Shown here piece after piece: positions 6,348 to 30,895 of a DNA stretch of 53,140 nucleotides (positions are counted from its first letter, which is position 1; each line of letters opens with the position of its first letter). Where the stretch lies: NCBI GenBank assembly GCA_023381255.1, contig JAMCTX010000012.1, forward strand, positions 1-53,140, given 5' to 3'. The notes beneath the pieces were generated by a model that ran no database searches, had not been told where the DNA came from, and saw nothing but the letters and a program-made list of their open reading frames with translations. Source of the stretch: Nitrososphaerota archaeon (GTDB lineage: Archaea; Thermoproteota; Nitrososphaeria; Conexivisphaerales; UBA164). The position numbers and the translations under genes are program-made.

Positions 6348-7718
6348 TTAACGGATCGTTTTGTTTAGTGTCAAATTTGAACTCTGTTGTTTCCTCATAT
6401 CTAAAATTTCCAAGATTACAAAACCTGCGATAATGTATCCTGTGAAGACTAAGATCAATACATTCGTTGAAGTAATGAGACTGTATATTAAGACAAAACC
6501 AGATAGCGCAATGGCCAATAGGGAGACACCTATTCTCTTAAGACTGCGTGCAGCGGATTTCAGAGATTCAGACAGAAGGGAGAAATTTGCGATTAAATGA
6601 ACGGCGAGGTTAGCAAGGCCAGCTATTGAACCAAGAAACAGGAAGAGTACAAAAACATTGATGGTTAAAATGACGGGAATCAAAACTACACCAGAAATTA
6701 GCACAACAAAGTACACTGCAGTAATAGGTGTACTATACCGACTTGAAATCCTTGAAAAGAATGGATGTATGAGTTTATTACTAGACATTGCATATATGCT
6801 CCGCGAAGCAGCTGTTAGGAAGGCAAGAGAACCAAGTATTCCGTCATTAACTGCAGCAAAAAGAAGCAGTGGAACGGAGTAGTTTCCAAGGAAAGACCTC
6901 ATAACCGTGATTACTGGAACGCTGGAAGAAAGCATTGCACTGAATGAGTGTGTAGTTATACCTACATCAACTAATCCGTACAGAACAAACGCTTCTAATA
7001 GCCCACCAATTATAATCACCATGAGAGCAGCTCGGCCAACATTCTTATGCGCATCTTTTACTTCTCCTGATACAGGGGTAATTGCTCCATATCCGGTTGG
7101 TATTCCAATGGCAAATAGAATGCCAAGAAAAATTATAGAAGGTGATGGCAAGGACTTAATAGGACTGTAAAAGGAAAAATGGGATATGTATAACGATACA
7201 AAAATCACAGCTACCAGCACTGCGATTTCTATTGATGCCGCAAATGTGGCATAATGCTTTGAGGGTTTAATGCCAAAAATAAGAAAAACGGATGAAGGGA
7301 TGAAGACTATGGCAAATGCCAGAGGTGCTGGAACACCAACAATATACGAAAGAACAAAAGCAGACCCTACCATATATCCGCCCGCGTATAAAATTGAATA
7401 GAATATGTAAATCCATCCAGTCTCGAACCCAAATCTCTTCGATAGAAGCTTGAACGCGTAGTTAAAATATCCTCCTGTTTCCGTGTGTTTCCTGGAAAGA
7501 TAATATACGACTATCCCATTGACAAGTACTACCCCGGTTCCAATAATAACCACTATGGGGGAAAAATACAATGCAAGCAACAAAACAGCCGTAGCATAAG
7601 TAAGCATACTTAAAAACGGAGCCTGTCCTCCAAAGGACAAGAAAAATATATCTCTAAAGTTTAACTCTCTCTTGAGCTCACTACTCTTTCCGATAACATT
7701 GTTGGTTTGGACACTCAA
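6348..7718 (-). CDS. APC-superfamily amino acid permease-like transporter
   Basis: A 456-residue polytopic protein of about 12 hydrophobic segments. It shares with the permease at 3243-4559 the N-terminal block FFLSFGGQAPFLSMLTY, the loop GIPTGYGAITPVSGEVKDA and the NDGILG block, so the two are homologous members of one subfamily. The start is TTG at 7718, because an in-frame TAA lies two codons upstream and no ATG is available nearby; a start this weak may mean that the true 5' end was altered. The gene's 5' end lies only about 54 bp from the end of the second IS. The substrate is unknown. Confidence 0.8.
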   Translation of the reverse strand: MSVQTNNVIGKSSELKRELNFRDIFFLSFGGQAPFLSMLTYATAVLLLALYFSPIVVIIGTGVVLVNGIVVYYLSRKHTETGGYFNYAFKLLSKRFGFETGWIYIFYSILYAGGYMVGSAFVLSYIVGVPAPLAFAIVFIPSSVFLIFGIKPSKHYATFAASIEIAVLVAVIFVSLYISHFSFYSPIKSLPSPSIIFLGILFAIGIPTGYGAITPVSGEVKDAHKNVGRAALMVIIIGGLLEAFVLYGLVDVGITTHSFSAMLSSSVPVITVMRSFLGNYSVPLLLFAAVNDGILGSLAFLTAASRSIYAMSSNKLIHPFFSRISSRYSTPITAVYFVVLISGVVLIPVILTINVFVLFLFLGSIAGLANLAVHLIANFSLLSESLKSAARSLKRIGVSLLAIALSGFVLIYSLITSTNVLILVFTGYIIAGFVILEILDMRKQQSSNLTLNKTIR

Positions 7719-7773
7719 CGTTTAATCAGTCTCAGTCATTCATCGGCACTCCTTAAGTCTTTCTGCGGAATCG

Positions 7774-8543
7774 ATAGAGTAGACCGCAGGTCTTGCCCTG
7801 CGGCCCCTCGTCGAACGTAGCGGGCGGATTTCCCGCACTACGCTCACCGACAGGCTTCTCCGTCCAGCATTATCACAGCCCCTTCGGGCTGCCTTCGCTG
7901 GGCGAAACAGTGCCAATTTCAGCTCTCCGGCCTTTATCCGCTTGGTACGCCTTTCGGCGAATACGGACTGCCTTTCGCCTCTATCGGCACGTGCCTGAAG
8001 CGAAGACCCTTAGCATCCCTGCCCATTGCAGGCAGTTCCTCGCTACTATGGTCTCCTCTGACTTCCGGCAGCGCATTGGGGCACATTTCGCGGGTTACGC
8101 TTATAGTGCCCCTTACCCCTGCACGGCGGCACCGAGCATGCCAAAGCATTTCGGGCCAATTGCCATGCTTGAGGACCCTGCCGGACATCCCGCCTTCTCT
8201 TGAACAGCCTTCGCTGCATGCCAGCCCTGCTACACCGGGAAGCCCCACCAACTCTGCCAATTTCGAAGGTGGGTACTGCCTTCGCCACCACACTATAGGC
8301 TCGGCACTTCCCTTTCTCCGCATTACTGCGGATTTGCCTAACGATGCTACATCCGGGTTCACCATACGTTCTGGCCTGCGGTTTTGCGTCGGGGTGGTTT
8401 GGCCATCTGAGGTCAACTGAACCCCTTTGTCACCCTGCTCCAGCCGGGACAGTCGCCTGCCCTGCCTTGGGCCTCGCTTCGTAACCATTGGCTCTTGTTA
8501 CGTTGAGACTTTCACTCATGGTTGTTCACATCCGGCGGCGCAC
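7774..8543 (-). mobile_element. ORF-less group II intron (ribozyme)
   Basis: Read on the minus strand, this GC-rich block starts with GTGCGCC at 8543 and ends with CTACTCTAT at 7774, the boundary sequences of group II introns. Near the 3' end are a domain V hairpin (7813-7845) and a domain VI stem (CCGCAGG with CCTGCGG). The remaining sequence has intron-like blocks, for example ACCATGAGTGAAAGTCTCA about 25 bases in, and a translated LPEVRGDHSSEE string that I associate with the 5' part of bacterial intron ORFs. No reverse transcriptase follows: domain IV is only a remnant with many stops. At 770 bp the size is right for an intron that has lost its ORF. It must rely on a maturase elsewhere, or be inactive. 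The open frames across it are not genes. Confidence 0.85.
7813..7845 (-). ncRNA. Group II intron domain V
   Basis: The minus strand reads GAGCGTAG, T, GCGG, GAAA loop, TCCGC, bulge, CTACGTTC. The lower helix GAGCGTAG/CTACGTTC pairs completely (with one G-U), the upper GCGG/CCGC helix is capped by a GAAA-type loop, and a short bulge lies on the 3' side. This is the conserved catalytic domain V layout with the AGC triad at its base. It is followed by GACGAGGGG and the domain VI stem. Confidence 0.85.
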
Positions 8544-8708
8544 GCTGTGGGACAAAATTGTTTAATGACCACTAGGCACAAGGAAATCCAACAACGATAT
8601 TTATCCGCATAAATATAAAGCAGCAAATTCATGTTTTTTAAGCGAATTATGAAACGCCCTTTACATATATGTATATATGTTATGATTTACATTTAGTCAT
8701 AAATCAAA

Positions 8709-9738
8709 TGATCACAGAAAACGACATCAGCAGGACATTGGATGAAATAGATAAGCACATCAGGGAAGAATATCTTGCGGCCAGACCTAAAAAGAGGAGG
8801 GGACATGGGAGCAGGTTGATGCCCAGAGGATCAAGGGGGCAATGATGGCCCTTGACCCGCTGATACATGAAGCTGTTTCCACGATAAGGGTTGACAGGGA
8901 GACAGGAAGGCCATCAGCGCTTAGCCTTGAGGACAAGGTCAAACTGCTGCTGATCAAGCAGCTTGTTGGAAAATCAAACAGGGAATTTGCGTACATGCTT
9001 GACATATTCTCGATGGTGTCAGGCATAGACGTTTCGTACAAGACAGTCGAACGACTCTACTCTTACGAGCTGGTGATGATGGCACTGCACAACCTGCATG
9101 TGCTTATACTGAAAAAGAAGGGCATAAAGGAATCTTATGCAACCGGTGACGGCACAGGGTATTCACTCACGGTCAAGAAGAACTACGAGTCGTATGCAAG
9201 GGAGCTAAAGGAAAGGGCGAAGGAAGCAGGCAATGAAAAATCAGCGAATAATGCATCAGGGCATCAATCAGCCAATAAAAAGAGGCTGTTTGCATATTAG
9301 TTCAGGCTAATGGATCTTGGCACAAGGATGTACATTGCCTTTGGTTCAAGCCTGAAGTCTGAGAAGGAGGCGTTTAACAGGGCAATGAAGATGCTGAGGA
9401 GAACCGATATAACCCTGAAGAGCGTCAGGCTTGACAAGTACTACAGCGTATCAAAGTACGTAAGCAAGTTTGGCAAGCGCACAAAGGTGTACATAATACC
9501 AAAGAAGAACGCAACTCTAAACGGATCACAGAAGTGGAAGGATACGATGAAGGAGTTTGTGACAAACACTATGAAATACCTGGAGGAGTATTACAAGAGG
9601 GAAAACTCTGAAGCCGGGTTCTCCGCTGACAAGAAGATGCTTGGCTGGGGAATTGCACAAAGAAGAGAGGACAGGATAGACTGCGCACAGTTCACCACCG
9701 GATTGTGGTACAACCTGTTCAACCTGACTCCATATTAG
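8709..9738 (+). pseudogene. DDE transposase of the second IS, frameshifted and with an internal stop
   Basis: ATG 8709 opens MITENDISRTLDEIDKH and runs to RPKKRRG. The coding then continues one frame back after the A-run at about 8789-8793 (VDAQRIKGAMMALDPL), so a -1 shift or a one-base deletion is needed. An in-frame TAG at 9298-9300 follows KKRLFAY. The same frame resumes with MDLGTRMYIAFGSS and ends in FNLTPY at TAG 9736-9738. Candidate catalytic residues are the Asp of TGDGTGYS, the Asp of RLDKYYS and the Glu of ENSEAGFSADKK. This is an IS4/IS5-like DDE layout; I cannot name the exact IS family. As written the copy is inactive. Confidence 0.7.
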
Positions 9739-9756
9739 GGTTCTGTCCCACAGCCG

Positions 9757-10263
9757 CTATTGCTTAAATCCAATATAACAGAACAACTCAGTTATGCCTC
9801 TGCAATATAACACTATAGCCCTGTGGTTACCATCAATTATACTTATTTTTACACTATTACGGATACATAACAGAGCACTATATCTAATCGCTTTTCCGTT
9901 ATCATTTAACTCTTCCATTAGCGTAGGTTGTTCCTTTAGCATGTTACAGACTTCGCTAAGCTTAAAATTAGCTTTTATCAATAAGGGATTTACCTTATAG
10001 TTTATGAATGAGAGTCTTAACTCATCATAACCTATTTGACAAATCTTCCATATATAATCTTGAATATATATTGCATCATAAACTCCATTTTTTCTAGTTT
10101 CTGAGAGATTTTTCACCAAATGCTTTACTTCTTCATCGTCGTATAGGTCATTCAAGAGCTCATGTAACTTTACAATGCCGTCTGCTTTTTCCCTAGATTT
10201 TTCTGAAACTATATAATTTAAACCAATAAGCCTACGTTCAATATTATTCTCTAAGCATTTCAC
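9757..10263 (-). CDS. ParB/Srx-fold-like protein, C-terminally truncated by the IS
   Basis: The 168-residue product is helical for most of its length. Its last third contains YSALLCIRNSVKISIIDGNHRA followed by hydrophobic strands. The IDGNHR box is the typical sequence of ParB-like and sulfiredoxin-like nucleotide-binding folds, in which the Arg/His contact phosphate. The stop TAG (9757-9759) is formed partly from the last base of the IS repeat, so the natural C-terminus was probably removed. It lies 64 bp downstream of the HEPN-motif gene on the same strand, so the two were likely co-transcribed. The function is unknown. Its AT-rich composition matches its neighbours. Confidence 0.55.
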   Translation of the reverse strand: MKCLENNIERRLIGLNYIVSEKSREKADGIVKLHELLNDLYDDEEVKHLVKNLSETRKNGVYDAIYIQDYIWKICQIGYDELRLSFINYKVNPLLIKANFKLSEVCNMLKEQPTLMEELNDNGKAIRYSALLCIRNSVKISIIDGNHRAIVLYCRGITELFCYIGFKQ

Positions 10264-11305: not shown

Positions 11306-11695
11306 CCTAATATTTATAAAGCGGAATTATCTTATAAATTTTTTTAAATACGAAGGAGGTGATGCTTTAATAAATATGTTAAGGCTAATCCGAAATATGC
11401 ATGGCACTAAGTATTATTTATTTCAAGTAGCTAGAATTATCAGTTTGGAGGCTTGACCGATTGGTAAACATAATTATAAAGACATGACTGAAGCTTTGTT
11501 AACTTGCAAAGTGAATTTTAGATATAAATATTAAATTATTGAAACAAGGTGTCAAATTTGCTTGATAAATTGAGCAAATTACCCAACAAATTAAGGTAAA
11601 AAGGCTACATAAAGAGTGTTATGTTATAGATGTTGTATAACAGTATTTGATTAGAATTAAAAAGATTTATCAAACTCGGCAACATAACTTTGGTT
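11306..11695. other. Divergent promoter region of the HEPN and OLD genes
   Basis: This 390-bp AT-rich gap has a TATA box on each strand: TTTATAAG (minus, 11331-11338) for the HEPN gene, and ATTTATC (plus, 11665-11671) for the OLD gene. On the plus strand a perfect Shine-Dalgarno string, AAGGAGGTGAT (11353-11363), is followed by short frames: ATG CTT TAA at once, and a 26-codon frame at 11376-11456 (MLRLIRNMHGTKYY...). No other gene is visible. Confidence 0.4.
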
Positions 11696-13633
11696 ATGAA
11701 GATACGTAAGTTAGAGATAAAACATTTTACATCCATAGAATCGCTGGCTATAAACTTTAGTGATACAGTAGCTCTTGTGGGTCAAAATAATTCTGGAAAA
11801 TCAAATATTATAAAGGCGCTCGACCTTTTCTTTGATCCTTCATCTAGTAAGGTCTATCCAGAGAGCTTCTATATGAAGGAAACCGATATTCCAATAGAAA
11901 TAACCGTCGAATTTGACAGGCTAAGTGCCAAAGAGGAGGAATATTTTTCGGCATATATTTATAATCATACACTCAAGGTTAGACGCAGGATTGAATGGGA
12001 TAAAGAAAATGAAAAGGCTATTATACATCACATTGGATTCAGCTTTGATCCCAACGAACCTTGGTTGATAGATGATAAAATTTCAGCAGAACAAATAGAT
12101 CAGTGGTTGCAACAACCTGAAATGCTGTCGATTGCTGGCATATCATTCCTTAAGTATCTTGACAGTTCCAACCCTACAGTTAAAGATTGGAAAGATGCTG
12201 CTAAAAAGTTTATTAAAGAAAATACCATGAATATTAAGATTCAAGAAAATGAAAAAGAAAATATAAAAGGTTTTGAAGGCGTTTTGAAGGGCGGGCTGCC
12301 TAAGTTCATACTAATTCCTGCCATACGAGATATTAGAGATGAAACCAAGGTTGGAAAAACTAACCCGTTTGGAGAACTGATCATGTCAACTTTAAATGAA
12401 TTACAAGGCGAAGGTAGAAATAAATTTAACGAAGCGCTACATAATGTAGTACAATACGTAAATGCTGACGGGTCGCAACGTCTCAGTGAATTAACAATCT
12501 TGGAGAATAAGTTGAATGAAACTATAAATGATTTTGTACAAGGATGCAAGTTGCAGTTGCAAGTACCTGATATAACTATAGAAGATGTTTTAGCTAGGGT
12601 TAAGATTTTTGCAGATGACGGATTCAAAGGGGTCATTGAAGGAAAAGGACACGGGCTCCAGAGATACGTTATATTTTCCATTCTAAAAGCATATGCTGAA
12701 TCTTTAAGAACTATTAGCAATGGAGAAAGGCGACGCAGTATTATCTTTGCCATTGAAGAACCTGAAATTTATCTGCATCCTCAGGCGCAGCGTATAATGT
12801 ACCAAGTACTCCTAAAAATAGGTAATGGGGAGGATCAAGTTATCTACTCTACACATTCTGCACTTATGGTTGACATTATGTACTTTGATAGACTTTGTAT
12901 AATATCACGTAAGAAATTAGACGGTAATTATAAGACGAAATTAAAGCAACTTGCAATAAAGAATATAATAGAAGATCTCAAGGCACGCTATCCTAAAACA
13001 TCACCAACTGAACAAAGTATCAGAGAAAGATATTTCCACGTCTACTCGACTCAACGAAACGAAGGCTTTTTTGCACAGAAAGTAATTCTTACAGAAGGAC
13101 AGACCGAAGAGTATGCCCTCCCAATATTTTCTAAGGCTTTGGGTTACGATTTTGATCGAGAAGGAGTCTCGATCGTATCTGCTGGCGGAAAAGGTACAAT
13201 AGATAGGTTTATACGAATTTTCAACGAGTTTGAAATTCCATGTTATACCATATGTGATGGTGATAAAGATAAAGCTAGTAAGGAAAATAAAAAAGAGACC
13301 AGCGATCTATTTGCATTAACGGAAAAGTTAGATAAAGTTCCTTCGCGGACATTTGTAGGCGAAAGAATAACTATTTTTGTCAAAGACTACGAACACCAAA
13401 TGCGCGAAGAAATAAAAAACTATCAAACATATGTCCAAGAAGCCAAACGTGAGTTAGGTCTGCGTGGTGATAAATCCAAGCCACTAATCGCCAGATATAT
13501 GGCTAATCAACTTGTAAACAAGGGCACTGAAGAAGGTGATCCTTCAAAGTATGTTCCAAAAACTTTAAGGGAAATAATTGACAACGTGCGAAAGTTAGAA
13601 TATAAAGGGTCAGTCCTCAAGGTCTTATCTTAG
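11696..13633 (+). CDS. OLD-family ATP-dependent endonuclease (ATPase plus TOPRIM)
   Basis: A 645-residue protein starting at ATG 11696 (MKIRKLEIKHFTSIESL), the typical first strand of the ABC/SMC-like ATPase fold; TTG 11690 is an alternative start. The Walker A motif GQNNSGKS is at residues 29-36. The Walker B region AIEEPEIYLHPQAQ is near residue 355, followed by the Ser-Thr-His string STHSALM. A TOPRIM domain follows, with VILTEGQTEEY near 462 and CDGDKDK near 520 as metal-binding acids. This is the class 1 OLD layout, known from phage P2 Old and from nucleases of antiviral systems such as Gabija. No UvrD-like helicase partner is adjacent, so it is either a stand-alone OLD or a partner of the HEPN operon. 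Confidence 0.85.
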   Translation: MKIRKLEIKHFTSIESLAINFSDTVALVGQNNSGKSNIIKALDLFFDPSSSKVYPESFYMKETDIPIEITVEFDRLSAKEEEYFSAYIYNHTLKVRRRIEWDKENEKAIIHHIGFSFDPNEPWLIDDKISAEQIDQWLQQPEMLSIAGISFLKYLDSSNPTVKDWKDAAKKFIKENTMNIKIQENEKENIKGFEGVLKGGLPKFILIPAIRDIRDETKVGKTNPFGELIMSTLNELQGEGRNKFNEALHNVVQYVNADGSQRLSELTILENKLNETINDFVQGCKLQLQVPDITIEDVLARVKIFADDGFKGVIEGKGHGLQRYVIFSILKAYAESLRTISNGERRRSIIFAIEEPEIYLHPQAQRIMYQVLLKIGNGEDQVIYSTHSALMVDIMYFDRLCIISRKKLDGNYKTKLKQLAIKNIIEDLKARYPKTSPTEQSIRERYFHVYSTQRNEGFFAQKVILTEGQTEEYALPIFSKALGYDFDREGVSIVSAGGKGTIDRFIRIFNEFEIPCYTICDGDKDKASKENKKETSDLFALTEKLDKVPSRTFVGERITIFVKDYEHQMREEIKNYQTYVQEAKRELGLRGDKSKPLIARYMANQLVNKGTEEGDPSKYVPKTLREIIDNVRKLEYKGSVLKVLS

Positions 13634-30613: not shown

Positions 30614-30895
30614 AGCGTTAATTTAAATATTGAATTATTTAATTATTTATATCACTTTCTGGTTAAAGCAGAGACAATGGCTTATTAAATTAAATGAATT
30701 ATCATGAACACAACAACGGATATTTTATACATGTTGTAGGCGGCTGTCAAAGGCACATAATGGATCTTGATTTCAATGCAATCAGAAGTTATCCTTTTCC
30801 ATGCTGATCAACAAGGGGTGACATAAGTCCTAAAATTCTACATTAACTAGTTAAAAGGCTCAGTGTTTATTAGTATCCATGCTAAAGCAAAATAC
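30614..30895. other. Divergent intergenic region
   Basis: These 282 bp lie between the hsdM and rtcB starts. The hsdM side is AT-only (30620-30650). On the rtcB side an AGTTAAAAGG box lies near 30849. Nothing else is recognised. Confidence 0.3.

Follow-up and report, generated by a model that had tools for sequence, protein, structure and literature searches.

A group II intron without its reverse transcriptase in the terminal repeat of an archaeal insertion sequence

On contig JAMCTX010000012.1 of a Nitrososphaerota archaeon (assembly GCA_023381255.1), an insertion sequence (IS) lies next to a block of DNA that splits its left terminal repeat. What this block is, how it came to occupy such a position and whether its RNA may still be active are the questions raised by the locus, examined here in a window of 53,140 nucleotides (the whole stretch of DNA that was analysed). 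The first-pass annotation had taken the block for a group II intron without an open reading frame (ORF), on the basis of its ends, a domain V and a domain VI stem, and had proposed a covariance-model search of the domain V-VI region as a check.

The intron and the loss of its reverse transcriptase

The block is a real and well-formed group II intron on the minus strand that has lost its reverse transcriptase (RT) gene, and its boundaries are correct to the single base (Table 1). It begins with GTGCG and terminates with CTACTCTAT, in agreement with the GUGYG start and AY end (here AT) of such introns. The covariance search supported the annotated identity, with matches to domain I and to domains V-VI that exceed the respective curated Rfam cut-offs of 49 bits (RF02005) and 40 bits (RF00029). 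Domain V (DV) has a GAAA tetraloop, and the bulged branch-point A is found at window position 7780, 7 nt ahead of the intron 3' end. The minimum free energy of the intron RNA is 7 s.d. lower than that of dinucleotide shuffles, and in a three-intron consensus fold 51 of the 152 pairs present a double change that keeps pairing. The 6-nt EBS1 and EBS2 give the intron a IIB-like layout.

Domains I-III are about 70-71% identical, over nt 1-537/547, to those of two RT-encoding archaeal introns. Kinship places the host in the class Thermoplasmata. The best other match in 400 genomes of that class (71% over intron nt 1-547) is an intron of archaeon isolate Maxine3 (JARCRS010000107), and the second relative, with 70% identity, belongs to Ca. 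Sysuiplasma superficiale (JAGVSJ010000047). Both share the 5' end and EBS layout of the window intron, differing from it in their exon targets and in that these Thermoplasmatota MAGs keep the RT ORF in domain IV. The Maxine3 intron runs on into a group II RT matching TIGR04416 and that of Ca. Sysuiplasma superficiale into a group II RT ORF (ORFs of 219 aa, truncated, and 374 aa, respectively), the relatives' RT matching solved group II RTs. No Rfam DV match was obtained for the Maxine3 intron, and the Ca. Sysuiplasma superficiale contig ends ahead of DV. After these archaeal relatives come bacterial RTs at 38-56% identity, in keeping with the bacterial origin that is generally assumed for group II introns of archaea (PMC2882425).

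The homology to the Ca. Sysuiplasma superficiale intron extends as far as the RT start. In the next 54 nt the window intron reads KRIKAGELKLALFRPAKA, which aligns colinearly with MDKKVSELQQSLYRAAKA of the relative in spite of the missing start codon, with a score matched by none of 20000 shuffles and none of 1325 other stretches of the intron. Homology ends after this relic and DV starts within about 40 nt. The absence of an RT ORF that had been annotated was thus borne out, and the window intron is an ORF-deletion derivative in which about 18 RT codons are left and the deletion reaches near domain V.

Table 1. Features of the intron, its host IS and the neighbouring gene (window coordinates)
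Feature	Position	Strand	Details
Group II intron	7774..8543	-	770 nt; GTGCG 5' end at 8543, 3' end at 7774; Rfam and RT-encoding relatives
Domain I	8223..8512	-	Rfam RF02005 (group-II-D1D4-6), 58.9 bits, E 4.7e-14; covarying pairs
Domains V-VI	7774..7847	-	Rfam RF00029 (DV-DVI), 43.5 bits; match stops precisely at 7774
Relic of RT ORF N-terminus	7890..7943	-	Domain IV; KRIKAGELKLALFRPAKA; colinear with residues 1-18 of the Ca. Sysuiplasma superficiale RT; start codon lost
EBS2	8333..8338	-	GGCAAA, intron nt 206-211; inferred by homology with the stretch of the Ca. Sysuiplasma superficiale intron that matches its exon
EBS1	8289..8294	-	AGTGTG, intron nt 250-255; 11-nt hairpin loop
IBS2	8551..8556	-	TTTGTC, exon -13 to -8; inside IS end
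IBS1	8544..8549	-	CACAGC, exon -6 to -1; in IS terminal repeat
IS (weak IS5-family match)	8544..9755	+	Terminal repeats GGCTGTGGGACA; first G of left repeat at 7773, beyond the intron; two other genome copies
Transposase ORF	8842..9738	+	Broken by TAG at or adjacent to 9298-9300; contig 21 copy has a sense codon
Amino-acid permease gene	6348..7718	-	Pfam PF00324, 2.9e-21
Predicted spliced junction	8544 to 7773	-	CCCACAGC^CGATTCC

The site of insertion

The limits of the host IS could be set with an intron-free copy on contig 21 of the same genome, which is flanked on both sides by the 9-bp target-site duplication ACATAAATC, so that the IS end is GGCTGTGGGACA. The intron separates the two Gs of this end, one base inside the transposon, and its excision in silico yields AATCGGCTGTGGGACAAAA, which is also the left end of the contig 21 copy. 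This duplication-flanked paralogue confirms the annotated placement in the IS terminal repeat, with the caveat that the intron leaves a single base of the repeat, the G at 7773, beyond its far end. Taken alone, the join at this G gives weak support for insertion, since one base agrees by chance in 1 case out of 4; the continued agreement over AATC is external to the IS and coincidental. A target-site duplication is absent at the window copy of the IS, the flanks being TGCGGAATC on the left and GCTATTGCT on the right, which points either to an additional rearrangement of the locus or to a less than simple history of the IS. The transposase itself scores 25.5 bits against the IS5 model NF033579, below the cut-off of 140.

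Pairing between the intron and its 5' exon would lend independent support to a true insertion at the IS repeat. EBS2, which is unpaired in the consensus fold, matches IBS2 at 6/6 positions (one G-U), and EBS1 matches IBS1 at 4/6, with mispairs at -1 and -2 adjoining the splice site. The EBS1-homologous hairpin loops of the two relatives pair 6/6 with their own 5' exons, and their EBS2 does so at 6/6 positions in Ca. Sysuiplasma superficiale and 5/6 in Maxine3; the resulting sums of 12/12 and 11/12 support the EBS assignment. Over both window strands, at least 10/12 EBS-IBS pairs are reached at 271 of 106,254 positions (0.26%), and a complete IBS2 match combined with the first four IBS1 pairs occurs at only 8, the intron site among them. 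GACAAA at intron nt 113-118 was first considered as EBS2 but set aside, as it is conserved in the relatives, which have other exons. Because IBS2 fits fully but IBS1 only in part, the pairing suggests targeted retrotransposition into an imperfect (ectopic) site.

History and possible activity of the intron

The reading preferred here, with a probability of about 0.85, is that an RT-deleted IIB-like intron entered the left terminal repeat of the IS in antisense orientation. Deletion of the RT gene would have left the domain IV codons described above, and the intron would have reverse-spliced into the repeat, guided by the full EBS2 and partial EBS1 match, with target-primed reverse transcription following; the RT may have been supplied in trans or have been the intron's own before its loss. 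The opposite order of events, in which the intron already stood ahead of the permease gene when recombination or IS transposition brought the IS end up to its 5' end, would account for the missing target-site duplication and for the single repeat base beyond the intron. It is improbable, however, since it requires an IS end that is short by exactly one base and meets the first intron base precisely, and IS sequence that happens to fit EBS2 and EBS1 to the extent reported above.

The antisense insertion favoured here would have left a copy that is nowadays, most probably, non-autonomous or stranded. There is a substantial, somewhat less than even, chance that it is a dead remnant whose RNA no longer splices: the EBS1/IBS1 mismatch falls at the splice site, the family's remaining copies are fragments, and no group II RT was found in the intron's own assembly (85% complete) or in 20 genomes of the host's order. 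On the other side stand the intact domains I, V and VI with their compensatory changes and strong fold, and a copy in another genus that is 99% identical over the last 75 nt. An RT may lie elsewhere in the genome, given the completeness of the assembly, and a maturase encoded in the missing part could splice and mobilise the intron in trans, as established for the ORF-less introns of Thermosynechococcus (PMC2882425). With group II RTs in none of the 20 genomes of the order and in 4/400 of the class, such a helper is rather unlikely. Less probable still, and a speculation, is that a structurally intact intron persists in an order that lost all group II RTs and splices out of the permease leader by itself or helped by a host factor.

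On the same strand, the permease gene starts downstream of the intron, at a distance of 55 nt from its 3' end. Lying antisense to the transposase gene, the intron would be absent from the transposase mRNA and form part of a leader, antisense or readthrough, that runs towards the permease gene; any splicing would act on that leader RNA. Splicing may persist there, probably inefficiently. The earlier proposal that splicing keeps the transposon end intact was rejected, as RNA splicing cannot restore a DNA end: the left terminal repeat is split in the DNA, and this IS end should be inactive. With the transposase already interrupted by a stop codon, nothing in the IS would need protection. A separate peculiarity of the transposase is that its N-terminus (window 8709-8842) is in another frame than the remainder in both near-complete IS copies; the change falls at an A/G-rich run, where programmed frameshifting or decay common to both copies may account for it.

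Known counterparts and further copies

ORF-less group II introns were reportedly described in Methanosarcina by Dai and Zimmerly in 2003 (cited in PMC2882425). Like the window intron, they have a domain IV RT deletion with ORF remnants and occupy sites with EBS/IBS fit, which in the window intron is partial at EBS1; their genome carries RT-encoding partners and several copies, against a single full copy in the window genome, where no RT was detected. The same likenesses and differences hold for the TeI3 series of Thermosynechococcus elongatus, and mobilisation of ORF-less introns in trans is established (PMC2882425). A place inside an IS is shared with RmInt1 in ISRm2011-2 (PMC4238363), which is RT-bearing, mobile and within the transposase coding region, unlike the antisense, RT-less intron of the terminal repeat. 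The rarity and parasite-in-parasite character first ascribed to the locus were overstated, as introns in ISs are known (PMC4238363) and group II introns have been reported in 15% of surveyed Thermoplasmatota genomes (PMC8919778). The window intron adds one local case, in an unusual position, to a known kind of element. It attests an archaeal lineage of group II introns in Thermoplasmatota that has RT-bearing and RT-deleted members, offers a clear case of RT loss beside fragmented copies in related genomes, and provides a compact natural setting in which to ask whether splicing can outlast RT loss in an archaeal intron.

The search of the genome for an RT and further copies, also proposed in the annotation, was fruitful for the latter only, retrieving a truncated second copy on contig 25 (first 116 nt, 89% identity; contig positions 7400-7515). 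It lies inside an IS481-type transposase gene and is followed by a deletion, with about 78 transposase residues missing; both intron copies in this genome thus sit in insertion sequences. In the host's family (11 genomes) the other genomes carry fragments only, namely DV-VI pieces in three genomes and one domain III/IV piece. No vector was seen in phages, plasmids and IMG/VR searched with four DNA patterns and the RT, the one short DV match among plasmids being to an E. coli plasmid.

The contig of the other genus that bears the 99% identical DV-VI piece has parts of this intron in two orientations, separated by about 4 kb (L012:5561-5635 and 9788-9858). Within the window, 32 bp at 30813-30844 are identical to the end region of the contig 25 IS481-type element, which suggests another IS end, and an OLD-family ATPase/TOPRIM gene at 11690-13633 (AAA_15, OLD-like_TOPRIM), near mobile elements, is possibly a defence gene.
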